This document shows, piece by piece, positions 22,785-32,796 of a stretch of 43,371 nt of DNA. Source of the stretch: Candidatus Altarchaeales archaeon ex4484_2 (GTDB lineage Archaea > Altiarchaeota > Altiarchaeia > IMC4 > QMZM01); NCBI GenBank assembly GCA_002254565.1, contig NJEG01000011.1, positions 298 through 43,668 of the forward strand. The letters are read 5' to 3'. The notes under the pieces were generated by a model, which saw only the letters and a list, made by a program, of their open reading frames with translations, did no database searches and was not told where the DNA came from. Position numbers and translations under genes: made by a program. Position 1 is the first letter of the stretch. Each line of letters opens with the position of its first letter.

Positions 22785-23360
22785 ATGCACGCTGTGATGT
22801 TACTAGGGGAAAGCAGGAGACTTTTGAACAAGCCGTTCCATCTATTCAGGGATAGAGAGTTGTTTCTTCACGGCCACTCTGTCTTGGAGGAGGTCTTTGA
22901 TAGGGTTTTAGTGGTGTGTGACAGCCCTCTTGTGGAGAGGCTGGGGGATTATGGACTAAGGTATTACTCCGAGAATTACCATGCAGGCCCCCTAGGGGGT
23001 ATATACAAGGCAGCTGAGTCACTTGACAACGAATACCTGTTCATATTCGCCTGTGATATGCCGTTTCTAAACATAGATGTTATCGAGTACATGAGGGATA
23101 ACTCCGAGGGCTGGGGTTGTGTAATCCCCCAAAGGTCTGATGGAAATGTTGAGCCGTTGCATGCAGTCTACAGGAGAGATCTTGTCTTGGAGCTGCTCTC
23201 AGATGGCTTCCCAGAAAACAAGAGGGTTTCTTTTCTCGTTAAGAACATAAATGATGTGTCTTATGTGGAGGAGGAGATGATCAGGCGGTTCGACAGGGAA
23301 CTCATGTGCTTCCGGAACATCAACACACCAGAGGATTTGAGGTCATTGTCTCCTGGATAG
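22785..23360 (+). CDS. mobA: MobA-like nucleotidyltransferase (molybdenum cofactor guanylyltransferase)
   Basis: 191 residues. MobA attaches GMP to molybdopterin, making the dinucleotide cofactor used by formylmethanofuran dehydrogenase, whose genes lie in the same window. GPLGGIY and FACDMPFLN (Mg-binding Asp) and PLHAVYRRD are clear family motifs. The N-terminal loop, normally GGxSxRMGxDK, here reads LLGESRRLLNKPF, a degenerate form. So the enzyme may be altered in nucleotide preference. GGGGAAG lies just before the ATG. Confidence 0.75.
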   Translation: MHAVMLLGESRRLLNKPFHLFRDRELFLHGHSVLEEVFDRVLVVCDSPLVERLGDYGLRYYSENYHAGPLGGIYKAAESLDNEYLFIFACDMPFLNIDVIEYMRDNSEGWGCVIPQRSDGNVEPLHAVYRRDLVLELLSDGFPENKRVSFLVKNINDVSYVEEEMIRRFDRELMCFRNINTPEDLRSLSPG

Positions 23361-25611: not shown

Positions 25612-25740
25612 CTAATATACCCCCACCCTGCCAGCAGCATACACCCCACCCGTTGACTCATCTTTTACCTTAAGAGCTGCTGGCGCGAAAATTTCGGGGT
25701 CTATCCGGTTGAAGTCACCAATTAAACAGTATCCTATCAT
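25612..25740 (-). pseudogene. mch: C-terminal part of mch in a shifted frame
   Basis: 43 codons in the frame next to that of the 25715-26353 gene. They read LIGDFNRIDPEIFAPAALKV, matching the conserved end of Mch (in other archaea DFYKIDPxxFxPAxVxV). It ends at TAG 25612-25614, three bases before the LamG start. Its presence shows that the Mch frame is interrupted, not naturally ended, at 25715. Confidence 0.75.
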
Positions 25741-26353
25741 CTAACTCCGGCATCAAGCACTCACCCTTCGCCTTCTCCACCAGATTAATGTCGTATCCAA
25801 GGCTGTGCAACCTGAACACCCCGACCTCGACTATACGGGCCATGACATTAATTAAACCCACATTAGATTTGCACCTGAACGCAGCCAGATAAAGCTCGGT
25901 TGCATTCATTTTCCCAAGTATTTCCTCGCACGTCTCCTGTGAAGGTAGATGATCTGTTTCAAAAATAAGGCATGCCTTATCTGATTTCTCCAAATATCCG
26001 ACTTCCTTCACAATCGAATTCAGGCTTTTCGCGAGAATATTAGCTGGCCCAGAACCTAAAGCCTGCATCCCGTTCACGCTCATAAACCAGCCCGCCATCT
26101 GGCAGCTCATGGTGGCTATGGCAGGTTTCTTGGGCACATCCACGCTTATCTTGTTCCCATCCACCTCAACGGATGCCAGGGAACCCATGCAGGCCTCAGC
26201 CACCCTAATACCGGCCTCAATAGGATAATCCCTGTTTACGCCTAAATCCAATACATAAGCTGTACCCTGGTCTGTGCAGTATTCATCAATCCCGGGACAG
26301 TAGTCATCTGCGACCTCCCCTAGTATACCACATGCCCTCCTGTTCAGGTTCAT
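25715..26353 (-). CDS. mch: Methenyl-H4MPT cyclohydrolase, frame-broken and shortened
   Basis: 212 residues against about 315 in the family. Mch interconverts N5-formyl-H4MPT and methenyl-H4MPT. PKKPAIATMSCQMAGW, ALGSGPA, and ARIVEVG with R173 and E176 (the pair reported as catalytic in Mch) are present. The sequence loses similarity after LMPELDD, near residue 206, and ends at TGA 25715-25717. The true C-terminus continues in another frame (25612-25740). About 60 residues of the usual region between these parts are missing as well, so it is both shortened and frameshifted. It starts by a 4-base overlap with fwdB and is the last gene of the C1 operon. Confidence 0.85.
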   Translation of the reverse strand: MNLNRRACGILGEVADDYCPGIDEYCTDQGTAYVLDLGVNRDYPIEAGIRVAEACMGSLASVEVDGNKISVDVPKKPAIATMSCQMAGWFMSVNGMQALGSGPANILAKSLNSIVKEVGYLEKSDKACLIFETDHLPSQETCEEILGKMNATELYLAAFRCKSNVGLINVMARIVEVGVFRLHSLGYDINLVEKAKGECLMPELDDRILFNW

Positions 26354-27624
26354 TTCCTTAATACTTCCCCCATAAGTTGTCTAAGAGTATCTTTTGTTGA
26401 TGTAGAGTAATCGAAGGGAGGCTTCATGGTCTGCCTAAGGGATATGGGAACACCATCCATCCTATAGAACGTGCCACCTGACTCGATACTGTCATACACC
26501 CCAGGCAACACTATATCGCTTAGGTAGGTTGTGGGGGTATGTGATACCTCCACAGTAACCAGGGGTATATCAGCCAGATACTCCACCACATCCCCTGGGA
26601 AATGCGCTCCCGGATCCGATGCCACCACCAGCATGGCATCAACCTCCCTCCTATGAAGCAGATCAATCGCTGAGGTGACCCCCGGGTTGTATCTCGGAAA
26701 GCCCCGGCTATAGTCCACAGCGTAAGGGTATCCAGTCAGCCAGGTGCATAATTCGTTGAATCCTGCAACGTTAGAGTGCCCCCGGTTAGCGAGTAAAACA
26801 GCCCTCGTGTATTTGTTGAGTTTCCTCACCAGATGCATTGCCTTCTCCATGTTCCTGTTCTTCCCCCTAGATGACGCCAGACCCAATCCCACAAAGACAG
26901 CACAATACTTCGCCTCCTTCATACCCCTAGCCATCTCTTTTATATCATCCACCTTAACACCAGCCACATCACACTTAAGCGGATAACCGTCTATCACCAT
27001 CTCTATCGCCGTTAACAGCTCATAATCACTGTTCGGTTCCACCTGCACGAATAAATCAGCCTGGTCTGCTGTCAGAGTCCTTCTGGGGTCTACTACCGCT
27101 ACTGTTCTCTCCCCCCTGCCGGCCCTGTATTTCCCTTCAGGATATAACGCGTGCTTGGACAACAGCCGCGGGTGGCTTTCCACCGGGTTGCAGCCCCAGA
27201 ACACCACATAATCCGCCCTGTTCCTGACCTCACCAAGGGTTGCTGAAGGCATACCCTTCTCCTGGAGAGCCTGTACGGTTGGCCCATGGCATATCGTAGT
27301 GCATGAGTCCAGATAACCACGCAGGTATTCTGCCAGCTGTATTCCCTCATACATTGCCTCAGTAGATATCTCGGTTCCCAGGTAAACCAACGGCTTTCTA
27401 GCATCAGACAGCACCCTGGCAGCCTCGCTTATCGCATTCATCCAGCTGGTTTCTACACCACCAACAACTGGCTTCATCAACCGTTCACCCTTAAAGTATT
27501 TCATGTACTTGGATCTACCCATCCAGCAGGCATTTAATACCTCAACATCACCCTCCCCGACATCCAGCACTATGTCATCACATGCTAAACCGCACACCGG
27601 ACAAGTATTGTTTTCGTGTCTCAT
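26350..27624 (-). CDS. fwdB: Formylmethanofuran dehydrogenase subunit B (catalytic)
   Basis: 424 residues. Subunit B holds the tungsten or molybdenum bis-pterin site that reduces CO2 to formate inside the complex. A [4Fe-4S] site is formed by C8, C11, C15 and probably C33 (CPVCGLACDDI). The metal ligand is cysteine C112 in TTICHGPT. The latter part (LVTVEVSHTPTTYLSDIVLPG) is the molybdopterin oxidoreductase signature. No selenocysteine TGA is seen at the C112 position. It overlaps fwdD and mch by 4 bases on either side. The nearby mobA gene could supply the cofactor. Confidence 0.95.
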   Translation of the reverse strand: MRHENNTCPVCGLACDDIVLDVGEGDVEVLNACWMGRSKYMKYFKGERLMKPVVGGVETSWMNAISEAARVLSDARKPLVYLGTEISTEAMYEGIQLAEYLRGYLDSCTTICHGPTVQALQEKGMPSATLGEVRNRADYVVFWGCNPVESHPRLLSKHALYPEGKYRAGRGERTVAVVDPRRTLTADQADLFVQVEPNSDYELLTAIEMVIDGYPLKCDVAGVKVDDIKEMARGMKEAKYCAVFVGLGLASSRGKNRNMEKAMHLVRKLNKYTRAVLLANRGHSNVAGFNELCTWLTGYPYAVDYSRGFPRYNPGVTSAIDLLHRREVDAMLVVASDPGAHFPGDVVEYLADIPLVTVEVSHTPTTYLSDIVLPGVYDSIESGGTFYRMDGVPISLRQTMKPPFDYSTSTKDTLRQLMGEVLRK

Positions 27625-27995
27625 TTCCTATATGAATCCAATATCTCACCTATGTTTTTGACATCCTCCAAAGTTGGCTTCAGCTCCGCATCAATGCCCT
27701 TGTATAACGGATTCCCGCAATCGCCCGTATCCCCCAAAGTTAACTGATTAGCCCAAAAACCCCTTGGAATGAACACATGACCACTTAGCACCCTCCCCTC
27801 TATTCTGGCCTCCAGCACAACCTGCCCGGATCTTGTTTCAACCTTAACCCTAGCTGGCTCCCCAAGACTGAGAAAGTCATCGGGGTTAATAAAGCAGATG
27901 GCAATCTCTTTCAAATATTCTTTTTCCATCTTGCCACCCCCCTTACAAATTCGACCCTGGCCCATAGAGGAGCCCGTATTCAGTAAAACCCTCAT
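27621..27995 (-). CDS. fwdD: Formylmethanofuran dehydrogenase subunit D (molybdopterin-binding)
   Basis: 124 residues, the length of FwdD. It completes the pterin-binding cap of the FwdBD catalytic pair. MRVLLNTGSSMGQG at the N-terminus and VFIPRGFWANQLTLGDTGDCGNPLYKGI are family hallmarks, as in the C-terminal domain of formate dehydrogenases. Overlaps fwdC and fwdB by 4 bases each. Confidence 0.9.
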   Translation of the reverse strand: MRVLLNTGSSMGQGRICKGGGKMEKEYLKEIAICFINPDDFLSLGEPARVKVETRSGQVVLEARIEGRVLSGHVFIPRGFWANQLTLGDTGDCGNPLYKGIDAELKPTLEDVKNIGEILDSYRK

Positions 27996-28714
27996 CTCAA
28001 TCGTATTACACCCCCACCCTTAACAGTTAAATCACCCCTGAATACCTTTCCGTCTTCCTTCTTGAAAGAGGGGAGCATCTTCTTAACACCCCCACATGCG
28101 ATTATCTCACCACCTGCCATCTCAGCACCCAAACCCCTTCCAGCCACCCCATCTATCCTGATCTCACCCTTCCTCATCCCGTATCCAGTGAACTCCCCCG
28201 CATCCCCGCCAACAACAATCAACCCACCACACATCCCTGCCCCCGTGTTGCATCCAGCACATCCATCAACTCTTATCTCTCCTCCAGTCATCCCAACCCC
28301 AGAGCCCCTGTATCCTGAGCCCAGATAGTTACCAGCATCTCCTTCAACAGTTATCTCCCCTCCGGTCATCTCCATCCCCGTCCACGATGCCGCATCTCCC
28401 TTAACAGTTATTCTACCCCCTTTCATCCCCTTACCAAGATATATTCCCGCATTACCCTCAATCACCAGCTCACCTGAGCTCATGCCCTCCCCGATACGCT
28501 GAATCCCGGACAGGTCACCTACCAGGGTAATATGGTCACCTGGCACCCCGCTTACAGAAAAATACTCACCAAGCTCTCTCACCCACTTACCCTCATATAC
28601 TTTAAGCTTTTTAATCTCATCTAAGCTCATACTTCCCAGCTTACAGGGTGTGAGATTCTCAGCCTCCAGACCGAGTCTTGGTTTATTTATTAACTCAAGC
28701 ACCAGATTATTCAC
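27992..28714 (-). CDS. fwdC: Formylmethanofuran dehydrogenase subunit C
   Basis: 240 residues with the subunit C repeat: GxxMxGGxIxVxGDAGxxxG in seven or so copies (GKGMKGGRITVKGDAASWTG, GMTGGEIRVDGCAGCNTG), which fold as a parallel beta-helix like the glutamate synthase GXGXG domain. It packs between the catalytic and amidohydrolase subunits. Overlaps fwdA and fwdD by 4 bases each. Confidence 0.95.
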   Translation of the reverse strand: MNNLVLELINKPRLGLEAENLTPCKLGSMSLDEIKKLKVYEGKWVRELGEYFSVSGVPGDHITLVGDLSGIQRIGEGMSSGELVIEGNAGIYLGKGMKGGRITVKGDAASWTGMEMTGGEITVEGDAGNYLGSGYRGSGVGMTGGEIRVDGCAGCNTGAGMCGGLIVVGGDAGEFTGYGMRKGEIRIDGVAGRGLGAEMAGGEIIACGGVKKMLPSFKKEDGKVFRGDLTVKGGGVIRLR

Positions 28715-30300
28715 GTCTTAACCTCCCTTGGCCTATTGATGTGTTCCAAACCGACACCATAGTTTGCTTCGTTGATACTGTAGTACCTGAATCTCTGCCT
28801 TATATCCCCTCGGAGGTCTTTATTGAGCGCAGGCTTAACGTATAATGTATCCCCCCCAACAGATCTGGTCTCCCCCCGTCTAGACACTATAACACCGTTT
28901 TTGATGGTGTACTCAGCCTGCCTAAAAGCTTTCTCTATCACCTCGCCTCTTGATTCCCCTGGATTTAGGTTATATACAGCAATATCCGCCCGTGCCCCCA
29001 CAGCAAGGGATTTATTGAGCCCAAGACGTTTAGCAGGACCTGCTCTTGTTAACACCGCGATTTCTCCGAGAGATAGCTCTCTATCCAGCGACTCAAGAGT
29101 CGTTTTCTCTCTCGCTGATTTATGGCATCTACCAAGCTCCTGGCCCCTGTATTTCCTATCCATAAGCCAGGCTATTATTTTTGGATAATCCATAAATGAG
29201 CCGGCGTTGGGGTGGTCTGTTGAGAGGCTTATCTGCCAGGGGTTTTCCACAAGCAAGGCCAGCTCCAGGCCACACGCCCATTGAATAGCGTTTACGTGGT
29301 TTTTTCTCCGGTAGTTGTAGGGAACCACACCACCACCAGCCTCGTTTTCTATGTCCATATTACACCATCTCCCATGCGTTAACTCCCCCAGATAGTGCTC
29401 GAATCCCGAATCAGCTGTTAAGGTCGTGGTGTCCCCGAATACTATCTGCCCCATGTCTACAGTGACCCCATCCCTCCTGTTTATTTCCTTCGCCAGATCC
29501 GCTGCCCTGGAATCCATATCCCTCCACGTTTCCCCCCCATAGCAGCTGAACTGCAGGTGGGTCACGTGAATTTCCAGATTAAGTGAAAGTGTTTCCCTGG
29601 CCGCCTCCCAGCTCCCCGGCTTACCTATGTTGTTGAGATGCAGATGTACGGGATGCGGTAGTTTCAGCTCCCCTCTAGCCCGTACCAGCGCCTCTATAAC
29701 CTGTTTTGGCGTTATACCGTACTCAGGTATCAGATCGTCTATGGACTCTATCTCCCCCCCGCGCTCCCATGCGATATAACCCCCGGGGTTAACAGCCTTC
29801 AACCCATAGGTTTTAGTCTTTGATATCATGTAGGCGAGCCACGCACTTGTTTTCTCTTCCTCACCTTCGCTGATGTATTCCATGATCTGGTGGTTGTTTC
29901 CAACCAGCAAAAGGCTTGTTTTGTCTACGTTGGGCGTATGGTTGAATTCATGATGCATGTGCAGGGCATTCAATGGAGCTACAGCAGGCTCATTCAAATG
30001 AGTGTACCCCATCACAGAATATTTGCTTCCAGTCTCCCGAGTGGTTGGCACAGGTGTTTTCTTCCCTCGAAAGGACTCGGGCCTCATCATCCGGGCTTTG
30101 TTAACAGCTGATCCTGCAAAGTGCGTGTGTATGTCAACACCCGAGGGCATCAATACCATACCTCTACAGTCTATCTCTCTTAGTTCCCCACTGATTCCCT
30201 CACTTATAAGCCCGTCAACAATACAGAGGTCTTCCCTCTCCCCCAGTATGTTATTTAAGGGATCATACAAGAAACCGTTTTTGAGTAACAGGTTTTTCAT
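28711..30300 (-). CDS. fwdA: Formylmethanofuran dehydrogenase subunit A (amidohydrolase)
   Basis: 529 residues. FwdA condenses formate, delivered through an internal tunnel, with methanofuran in a binuclear zinc site. Likely ligands by family alignment: H58 and H60 (VDIHTH), K168 as the carboxylated lysine (GLKAVNPGG), H219/H221 and H248, and D362 (LSTDHPNAGSF). YTHLNEPAV is a strong family signature. It overlaps mtdB upstream and fwdC downstream by 4 bases each. The ferredoxin-type subunits FwdF/FwdG of methanogens are absent from this operon. Confidence 0.95.
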   Translation of the reverse strand: MKNLLLKNGFLYDPLNNILGEREDLCIVDGLISEGISGELREIDCRGMVLMPSGVDIHTHFAGSAVNKARMMRPESFRGKKTPVPTTRETGSKYSVMGYTHLNEPAVAPLNALHMHHEFNHTPNVDKTSLLLVGNNHQIMEYISEGEEEKTSAWLAYMISKTKTYGLKAVNPGGYIAWERGGEIESIDDLIPEYGITPKQVIEALVRARGELKLPHPVHLHLNNIGKPGSWEAARETLSLNLEIHVTHLQFSCYGGETWRDMDSRAADLAKEINRRDGVTVDMGQIVFGDTTTLTADSGFEHYLGELTHGRWCNMDIENEAGGGVVPYNYRRKNHVNAIQWACGLELALLVENPWQISLSTDHPNAGSFMDYPKIIAWLMDRKYRGQELGRCHKSAREKTTLESLDRELSLGEIAVLTRAGPAKRLGLNKSLAVGARADIAVYNLNPGESRGEVIEKAFRQAEYTIKNGVIVSRRGETRSVGGDTLYVKPALNKDLRGDIRQRFRYYSINEANYGVGLEHINRPREVKT

Positions 30301-31151
30301 GCCAGCTCATAGGTTTTGTATAAATCAAATACCTGATCAGTATCCCTGAATATCTGCTTAATTATTTCCTGATGTATCCGCATCTTATGGTTTCCTGTGT
30401 AGATGCTGCCAATCACTGTTTTCCCGTGTTTTTTCACCACCCTATCAATCTCATCAACCCCGGAGATACCATAGGGGGGCACAGAGTTCAAATCCGCCAA
30501 CACCCTAAGTTTCTCCAAACCACTCCACAGATTCTCAGGCAGCAGTTGCACCCCCTCAGGACCTGCAGCAACAACGACCTGGGCGTTTATTAATACATCC
30601 TTAAGCTGAGCGGCTGTTCCCGCCTCAGCTGCTTCAACATGAATGCCGTATTCTTCCCTTAAATTTTTAGTGGTTTCCTCGGCCCTCTTCTTGTGCCTTG
30701 AGGTTAATGTTACCCTGCATTTCTCTTTCGCCAGCAATGCCGCCACCGACTGACCCACCGGCCCCGTTCCCGCCAAAACAACCGCGTTCATCCCATCCAC
30801 TCGGATGTACTCTTTTATGTTCCCAACGCAGGCGCTTGCAGTAGTATACGCTCCATCAGGATCCAATGCTACTGAAACCCTCATCCCCAACGGCAGCCGG
30901 TCAAGCGTCTCCAGGGTCTTTTTGAGATACTCCTTCGCTTTCATGATCTGGTGCCCCCCAATAAACACCGCAGTATTCTTCAATTCCTTCGGGCCTCTGG
31001 GGAAGAGGCTATGATAGATAATATCCGCTACCTCATCAAGCTCCACGTTATCGTACGGTAATACCACATCCACCCCAGAGTCATGCGCCACTGTTATGTC
31101 AAAGGCGCTGGCGTGCTTCTCGGTGCTAAGGTAGAGCAGTATCTTCTTCAT
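30297..31151 (-). CDS. mtdB: Methylene-H4MPT dehydrogenase, NAD(P)-dependent (MtdA/MtdB type)
   Basis: 284 residues. It reduces methenyl-H4MPT to methylene-H4MPT with NAD(P)H, a job done by F420-dependent Mtd or Hmd in methanogens. The N-terminal substrate domain (KKILLYLSTEKHASAFD, FPRGPKELKNTAVFIGG) and the Rossmann domain with GTGPVGQSVAALLA (about 128-141) and the TSRHKKR turn, suggesting NADP, match bacterial MtdB. In this operon it lies between metF and fwdA with 4-base overlaps. Cofactor choice is inferred from the RHKKR motif. Confidence 0.9.
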   Translation of the reverse strand: MKKILLYLSTEKHASAFDITVAHDSGVDVVLPYDNVELDEVADIIYHSLFPRGPKELKNTAVFIGGHQIMKAKEYLKKTLETLDRLPLGMRVSVALDPDGAYTTASACVGNIKEYIRVDGMNAVVLAGTGPVGQSVAALLAKEKCRVTLTSRHKKRAEETTKNLREEYGIHVEAAEAGTAAQLKDVLINAQVVVAAGPEGVQLLPENLWSGLEKLRVLADLNSVPPYGISGVDEIDRVVKKHGKTVIGSIYTGNHKMRIHQEIIKQIFRDTDQVFDLYKTYELA

Positions 31152-32041
31152 TTTATCTCCCTGAAAACCTCCATAAGCACCTTCGCGTTTCCAGCGGTCA
31201 TGATATGTGCCCCAGCTAATCCCTCATCCCGCAACTCATCAATCTGCTCCAGGATCAAGTGGATGCTTTCCTGGAAACTGTTTCCCGAATTAATTATTCT
31301 ATTTTTGATTTCAGAGGGTATAATCACATTAGGAATCGATTCCAAAAACTCTATTATCCCAGCGTCATACAATGCCACCAAACCAGCTATGACCTTCCCG
31401 TGTATATCCTCCCCGTGTTGCCTCTCGTATTCATCCAGAAATCTTTTCAGCTCCCCGACATCGAAAACCGCCTGGGTCTGGAAAAATCTGGCTCCCGCCT
31501 CCAGCTTCTTTCTTGTCTTGTGTATCTCCCCCTCCCAGGGTGAGGCAGTATGAGTTAACGCAGCTCCCGGATAGAAGTTTGTTCCACCGTAGAGTTTGTT
31601 CCCGGCCAGGTCTCTTCCCTGGTTCATTTCCTGCATACAGCATAGCAAGGAGGTGCTATCCAGATCATATACTGGTTTCGCTCCCGGGTGGTCGCTGCTC
31701 TTGCACCTGGGGTGGTCTCCTGTTATCGCCAGGATATTTCTTATCCCATAAGCTGATGCCGTCAAAAGATCAGCCTCCAAAGCCAGCACGTTACGGTCCC
31801 GGCACGCTACCTGGTACACCGGCTCAAGCCCAGCCTGCTTGACCATGATACTCCCACCAAGCGAGCTCATCAACAAAATACTTCCGGGTATGTCAACAAC
31901 GTTAACACCTGAGAGCTTACCCTTTATTTTCTTGAGTTCCTCCAGCTCCTTGCGGAACCCTCGGAGGTCAGCTCCCTTCGGCGGCGCAATCTCCGAGGTA
32001 TAAACGAACCCCCTCCCCAGCCTCTCACTTAGTTTGCTCAT
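31148..32041 (-). CDS. metF: Methylene-tetrahydropterin reductase, MetF family
   Basis: 297 residues, TIM-barrel flavoprotein. MetF reduces the methylene pterin to the methyl level. FVYTSEIAPPKG includes the conserved Glu (about 17), and ILAITGDHPRC, GGTNFYPGAALT and FFQTQAVFD are family motifs. In this pathway it would replace the F420-dependent reductase Mer; the carrier (H4MPT) is inferred from its neighbours. It overlaps metV upstream and mtdB downstream by 4 bases each, consistent with a MetFV complex. Confidence 0.92.
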   Translation of the reverse strand: MSKLSERLGRGFVYTSEIAPPKGADLRGFRKELEELKKIKGKLSGVNVVDIPGSILLMSSLGGSIMVKQAGLEPVYQVACRDRNVLALEADLLTASAYGIRNILAITGDHPRCKSSDHPGAKPVYDLDSTSLLCCMQEMNQGRDLAGNKLYGGTNFYPGAALTHTASPWEGEIHKTRKKLEAGARFFQTQAVFDVGELKRFLDEYERQHGEDIHGKVIAGLVALYDAGIIEFLESIPNVIIPSEIKNRIINSGNSFQESIHLILEQIDELRDEGLAGAHIMTAGNAKVLMEVFREIK

Positions 32042-32277
32042 TTTAGTTCAGGAACCCGTATCTTCAGATATTCCTCAAGCTTCCCCTGTTTCTTCATCTC
32101 CTCTAGTATGTGAACCCATACGCAGGGTTGGGTTCCCAGCTCACATATCCCCTCATGAACTCCCCCGCAGGGTCCGTTGAGCATGTTTTTAGGACAGTCC
32201 TCCATAGGACATTTATTCTTTAGGGTATAGGGTTTCAGGCATTCCCCGCAGTTCCTGCATATTTCGTGGGTTATCAT
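32038..32277 (-). CDS. metV: MetV-like zinc/iron-sulfur partner of MetF
   Basis: 79 residues with eight cysteines (C7, C10, C13, C23, C28, C37, C45, C52). The phrase NMLNGPCGGVHEGICELG followed by PCVWVHILEEMKKQG is the MetV signature. MetV is the partner of MetF in acetogens and is thought to carry iron-sulfur clusters or zinc so that an electron donor other than NADH can be used. It is the first gene of the operon. Confidence 0.9.
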   Translation of the reverse strand: MITHEICRNCGECLKPYTLKNKCPMEDCPKNMLNGPCGGVHEGICELGTQPCVWVHILEEMKKQGKLEEYLKIRVPELK

Positions 32278-32601: not shown

Positions 32602-32796
32602 ATGGTTGATGGTACTATTAAGTTCTTCAATGATGTGAAGAATTACGGTTTCATTGAAGGCGACGACGGTAATGATTACTTCGTCCACCGCAGTGATATC
32701 GTAGGTGAAGCCAGTTTAGCCGAAGGAGACCGGGTTTCTTTCACACCCGTTGAGGGTGACCGGGGTCCGAAGGCCGATAAAGTAGAGAAGTTGTAA
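32602..32796 (+). CDS. Cold-shock domain protein (CspA family)
   Basis: 64 residues, a complete cold-shock OB fold that binds single-stranded RNA and DNA. RNP1 is KNYGFIEG and RNP2 is DYFVHRSDI; the rest (GDRVSFTPVEGDRGPKADKV) fits the fold. It has a strong ribosome-binding site and a T-rich leader. Such proteins are frequent in bacteria and found in fewer archaea, so bacterial transfer is plausible. A poly-T region follows. Confidence 0.92.
   Translation: MVDGTIKFFNDVKNYGFIEGDDGNDYFVHRSDIVGEASLAEGDRVSFTPVEGDRGPKADKVEKL

Follow-up and report, generated by a model that had tools for sequence, protein, structure and literature searches.

An altiarchaeal F420-independent methyl-branch operon with an interrupted mch gene, in a genome that also carries a folate one-carbon operon

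The window analysed here is a stretch of 43,371 nucleotides from Candidatus Altarchaeales archaeon ex4484_2, lying on contig C29 of a 1.395-Mb, 53-contig, 83%-complete genome (G000). It contains an eight-gene run, metV-metF-mtdB-fwdA-fwdC-fwdD-fwdB-mch, whose last gene is broken as assembled. We put at slightly better than even (about 0.52) the probability that this is an altiarchaeal methyl-branch module that was inherited vertically and is in the course of loss after the duties of the one-carbon (C1) carrier moved to folate. Put more boldly, and only tentatively, an Altiarchaeota lineage may have been caught swapping methanopterin for folate, with the coupled operon surviving and mch, CODH/ACS, and methanopterin synthesis gone.

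The run occupies the minus strand from 32277 down to 25612 (Table 1). The families, identified with Pfam and NCBIfam models, are firm, and the set from metV to mch lies on one strand where the earlier note had placed it. The starts of mtdB, fwdA, fwdC, fwdD, and mch match those of their homologues in relatives. MetF is 48-54% identical to the closest altiarchaeal MetF proteins. MtdB has the full-length combination of Mpt_N and Rossmann domains that defines the MtdA/MtdB family, retains the glycine-rich nucleotide-binding motif, and matches the MtdA structures PDB 1lu9 and 6tge over its full length (E=2e-47); most relatives in the class have a match as well (E<=2e-42). The subunits FwdABCD, which an F420-independent altiarchaeal H4MPT branch requires, are all encoded. 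FwdB carries an N-terminal CxxCxxxC and matches PDB 9sw6 (E=4e-127) and 5t5i (E=4.5e-116), and FwdD, which scores under the narrow cut-off of model NF042908, is 45% identical to the FwdD of a relative (G015).

Table 1. Genes of the methyl-branch operon and a neighbouring gene (positions in the window)
Feature	Positions	Strand	Length	Product	Support
metV	32038..32277	-	79 aa	DUF5981 / MTHFR C-terminal-like MetF partner	PF12225 E=5.5e-20
metF	31148..32041	-	297 aa	Methylene-tetrahydropterin reductase (MTHFR)	PF02219 E=5.7e-30
mtdB	30297..31151	-	284 aa	NAD(P)-dependent methylene-H4MPT dehydrogenase, MtdA/MtdB family	Mpt_N PF09176 E=2.2e-22
fwdA	28711..30300	-	529 aa	Formylmethanofuran dehydrogenase subunit A	TIGR03121 610 bits, cut-off 393
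fwdC	27992..28714	-	240 aa	Formylmethanofuran dehydrogenase subunit C; GTG start	TIGR03122 213 bits, cut-off 131
fwdD	27621..27995	-	124 aa	Formylmethanofuran dehydrogenase subunit D	Molydop_binding PF01568
fwdB	26350..27624	-	424 aa	Formylmethanofuran dehydrogenase subunit B	TIGR03129 515 bits, cut-off 328
mch 5' part	25715..26353	-	212 aa		PF02289 E=1.8e-41, profile positions 26-210 of 311
mch 3' remnant	25612..25719	-		Other frame, GDFNRIDPEIFAPAALKVKDESTGGVYAAGRVGVY then stop	PF02289 positions 272-302 E=2.3e-4
MobA-like gene	22785..23360	+		MobA-like NTP transferase, about 2.3 kb from operon	PF12804 E=6e-22

Every junction within the run had been described as a 4-base overlap, and measurement bears this out for 7 of 7 (32041/32038, 31151/31148, 30300/30297, 28714/28711, 27995/27992, 27624/27621, and 26353/26350). 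Elsewhere in the stretches of this genome that were read, such overlaps occur at 4 of 59 co-directional junctions and at 4 of the 34 close ones (-20 to +50), and thus the pattern exceeds chance (7/7 vs 4/34, Fisher p = 1.5e-5). Because ATGA and GTGA overlaps are a common mark of translational coupling in prokaryotes, these junctions are an ordinary sign of such coupling, tidy rather than strange.

Near the operon, the MobA-like NTP transferase likely supplies the pterin-guanine-dinucleotide cofactor of FwdB. MobA-like genes recur near mch/cdh in G004 (L173:13211-13789) and, in G009, in one open frame with mch (L057:724-2403, PF12804 + PF02289). Divergent from metV on the opposite strand is a gene for a 64-residue protein, of the small cold-shock type judging by its sequence (32602-32796, MVDGTIKFFNDVKNYGFIEGDDGNDYFVHR...). 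Further upstream, a DDE transposase (PF01609, 33746-35207), whose C-terminus seems to be split off into a frame of its own of 100 aa, looks like a decayed insertion element.

The 5' frame of mch ends at a TGA after 212 codons, compared with about 280-308 in full-length relatives, and the conserved Mch C-terminus (GDFNRIDPEIFAPAALKVKDESTGG...) resumes in another frame, 1 nt past the point where the alignment of the 5' part stops; this remnant is 39-65% identical to relatives. About 46 codons that belong between the two parts are present in 15 of 16 aligned relatives (the sixteenth, G014, ends early), and the segment missing here includes the conserved NDA-IY and YG--F (F in most relatives). The lesion is a net deletion of ~137 nt plus a frameshift, either real or made by the assembly. 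Thus, the end of mch at 25612, previously given for a single gene, joins two frames, and the gene is broken as assembled. An intact Mch, which the F420-independent altiarchaeal branch needs, is not present in this assembly, although an assembly error is possible: a 137-nt gap in one metagenome-assembled gene can be such a fault. A PF02289 profile search of the genome found no further mch match beyond the two pieces, nor was the missing segment found elsewhere in it. A programmed frameshift is ruled out, since some 46 conserved codons are gone rather than one base. Repeats were also rejected as a cause, those at the site being short and chance-like, and the site has no notable DNA fold.

Neither Mtd nor Mer was found in any of 29 genomes (this one and 28 relatives), and CofG, the sole F420-synthesis gene searched, is absent from this genome and has no match above cut-off in the relatives. 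Thus, the F420-independent design proposed in the earlier note stands: a complete set of mtd, mer, and F420-synthesis genes, the last judged by CofG alone, is not found in the genome, the searches for Mtd, CofG, and Mer gave no F420-dependent backup enzyme, and MtdB and MetFV, whose families are matched, take the place of Mtd and Mer. This arrangement has been published. A 2015 review, referring to the genome paper of Probst et al. (2014), describes NAD(P)H enzymes that replace the F420-dependent dehydrogenase and reductase in the H4MPT pathway of Ca. Altiarchaeum hamiconexum (PMC4500143), and a 2016 paper states a bacterial-type dehydrogenase for both altiarchaeal clades (PMC4975002). The F420-independent altiarchaeal variant was thus published in 2014-2016 and is not new; the present operon is a compact further example. 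An Altiarchaeota lineage, guessed at before from sequence, agrees with the closest named relatives of MtdB, which are Altiarchaeota/Altiarchaeales MAGs.

In trees, the proteins from this genome and from the same-genus comparison genome, G001, join each other for MtdB (92/94), MetF (95/90), and FwdA (100/99). The MtdB tree has the protein in a clade of 13 altiarchaeal rows (99/97), outside the bacterial set; the altiarchaeal MtdB of G024 lies outside this clade on a long branch. MetF, MtdB, FwdA, and FwdC are 51-55% identical between the two genomes, whereas other orthologues, about ten genes in one syntenic stretch, are mostly 80-94% identical, with three at 59-67%. The end branches in G000 are 2.0 to 3.3 times those in G001 (0.86 vs 0.26 for MtdB, 0.54 vs 0.23 for MetF, and 0.74 vs 0.37 for FwdA). 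In a Tajima-type relative-rate test, MtdB is faster in G000 (below 0.02 with 5 of 5 outgroups) and so are MetF and FwdA with some outgroups, FwdA only weakly with distant ones; the same type of counts gives no rate asymmetry for FwdC. These differences fit relaxed constraint, with replacement from a related lineage less likely. Import of the operon from another altiarchaeal lineage would explain the divergence from G001 without relaxed selection, and the split transposase gene 1.5-3 kb upstream could be read in its favor. We nevertheless regard import as very improbable, given that GC, GC3, and codon usage of the operon match the rest of the genome, a native composition that rules out a recent foreign origin, and that all three trees join G000 to G001.

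Outside the operon, the genome retains part of what the pathway would need. No ftr, FwdF, or FwdG gene lies within the operon, as the first reading of the sequence had it, and the required Ftr is encoded on contig C31 (295 aa, full length, both Ftr domains above cut-off). The run around ftr (L031:6481-10104) encodes a CitG/MdcB-like protein, which scores under the cut-offs, and one whose sequence resembles a chloride channel; no C1 gene adjoins ftr. The methanofuran synthase MfnB is on contig C42.

Absences from the genome rest on 12 family searches and selected stretches of the 83%-complete assembly. Within that scope, neither CdhC nor CdhD/E was found, so that the CODH/ACS required for a Wood-Ljungdahl pathway is provisionally missing. 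Likewise, RFAP synthase (TIGR00144) was not found, and TIGR00284, which we take to be an H4MPT-synthesis family, gave no match above cut-off and a weak one on contig C40; synthesis of an H4MPT carrier is thus provisionally missing, with FolP and FolC present instead. G001 has all of these (CdhC and CdhD/E on C103, TIGR00144 on C105, and TIGR00284 on C252). The joint chance of missing three loci, at 0.17 each, is about 0.005 if losses are independent, a rough guide given that contig loss is not fully so. At 83% completeness, such absences are suggestive and no proof of loss. In two further family members that have mch and mtdB (G008 and G010), the same CODH/ACS and methanopterin markers were also not found.

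Some relatives show other arrangements of these genes. Within its CODH/ACS cluster, G001 encodes FwdA and FwdC a second time (L170:7962-10363, C103), with 43% (FwdA) and 41% (FwdC) identity to the operon proteins. CdhD/CdhE, the genes for the corrinoid iron-sulfur protein, are retained in two 92%-complete genomes, G006 (L034, C31, 2765-6688) and G004 (L173, C23, 8413-12493). Beside them lies a RACo activator (PF14574) in G006 and, by sequence, a similar protein in G004, with mch adjoining; CdhC was not found in either genome. Perhaps these two transfer methyl groups to methionine, in the manner of MesB/MesC (PMC7857596), instead of synthesizing acetyl-CoA.

The weak TIGR00284 match on C40 led to an intact folate one-carbon operon, glyA-folD-purN-purH-folC-folP (L187:3982-9998, L192:523-1767). 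DHPS, FolC, PurH, and PurN score above NCBIfam cut-offs; FolD matches many FolD models, all under their narrow cut-offs, and glyA is assigned by sequence alone. Bacterial contamination was considered and ruled out: the contig carries archaeal uL16 and aEF-1beta and thus belongs to the archaeon. Similar folate genes are apparent in the sequences of G016, G007, G021, G022, and G019, and folate synthesis genes have been noted for Alti-1 (PMC4975002). G016, G021, and G022 have folate genes but no Mch match and no real MtdB match, a gene content which suggests that a folate-only state may exist in the order.

The folate operon also permits a reading in which the module has been repurposed for anabolism: MetFV, and perhaps MtdB, would work on folate, supplying methionine synthesis out of the glyA-folD pool, with Fwd, Ftr, and Mch as dispensable remnants. 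The reductase family of MetF and MetV is of the folate type, MtdB finds its best PDB matches in structures of MtdA, and the MtdA/MtdB family includes MtdA, which can use folate. However, FolD already provides a methylene-folate dehydrogenase, and the fwdABCD genes, still intact, remain coupled in their place between mtdB and mch, making this reading improbable.

A weightier alternative, though on balance unlikely, is that the F420-independent Wood-Ljungdahl pathway is complete and works as it does in Altiarchaeum. In that case, the mch lesion would be an assembly error and the missing genes would lie in the unrecovered 17%. Several observations count in its favor and against loss: ftr and all operon genes except mch have their full length; the scores of FwdA, FwdB, and FwdC exceed curated cut-offs; MfnB is retained, as is the nucleotide-binding motif of MtdB; G001 has CODH/ACS, RFAP synthase, and TIGR00284; and the autotrophy of Altiarchaeum has been published (PMC4500143). 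Yet a working pathway needs three independent loci to be missing by chance, in addition to an error in mch, and must accommodate both the same pattern of absence in G008 and G010 and the unusual divergence of the operon proteins from G001.

Loss of the module after a change of carrier is therefore the reading we prefer. The genes and their order, the junctions, the lesion in the assembled mch, the lists of genes found and not found, and the raised divergence are observed, whereas enzyme specificities, loss as opposed to missing assembly, and the direction of change are what we infer. Judged from their families, FwdABCD would reduce CO2 to formyl-methanofuran, Ftr would transfer the formyl group to tetrahydropterin, and Mch would form the methenyl derivative, the step at which the chain is cut as assembled; MtdB would then reduce methenyl to methylene with NAD(P)H, and MetFV would reduce methylene to methyl. 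As the carbon-carrier role shifted to folate, the methyl-branch module would have become disconnected or begun to erode. With Mch broken, genes for CODH/ACS and methanopterin synthesis not found, and one-carbon biosynthesis covered by the complete folate operon, the module has probably ceased to work as a Wood-Ljungdahl arm in this species; operation as the Wood-Ljungdahl variant named in the earlier note is not supported for this genome. If loss is the correct reading, carbon fixation could not be deduced from genes for Fwd, MtdB, and MetFV, some of the Altiarchaeota that have the module would be non-autotrophic and run C1 metabolism on folate, and the genome would offer a test case for an archaeal lineage changing its C1 carrier.

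Several known systems resemble this one. One is in G001, where a 5.2-kb contig (C114) has the order metF-mtdB-fwdA-fwdC and sequences that are sisters by tree. There, gaps (4 nt between metF and mtdB, 201 nt between mtdB and fwdA) replace the 4-nt overlaps, an HdrC-like iron-sulfur protein follows the cluster, and fwdD, fwdB, and mch are not on the contig. The modified Wood-Ljungdahl pathway of Ca. Altiarchaeum, from the same phylum, also has an H4MPT branch with NAD(P)H enzymes of the methylotroph/ANME type in place of the F420-dependent dehydrogenase and reductase (Probst et al. 2014, as described in PMC4500143 and PMC4975002); unlike that system, the present one has eight genes in a single 4-nt-overlap operon, an interrupted mch, and neither CODH/ACS nor methanopterin synthesis detected. 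Finally, bacterial H4MPT C1 clusters of methylotrophs and Chloroflexota (e.g. L119 and L098) combine mtdB, fhc/fwd-type genes, and ftr in one neighbourhood, whereas the operon described here is without ftr, includes MetFV, and encodes an MtdB that belongs to the altiarchaeal clade.
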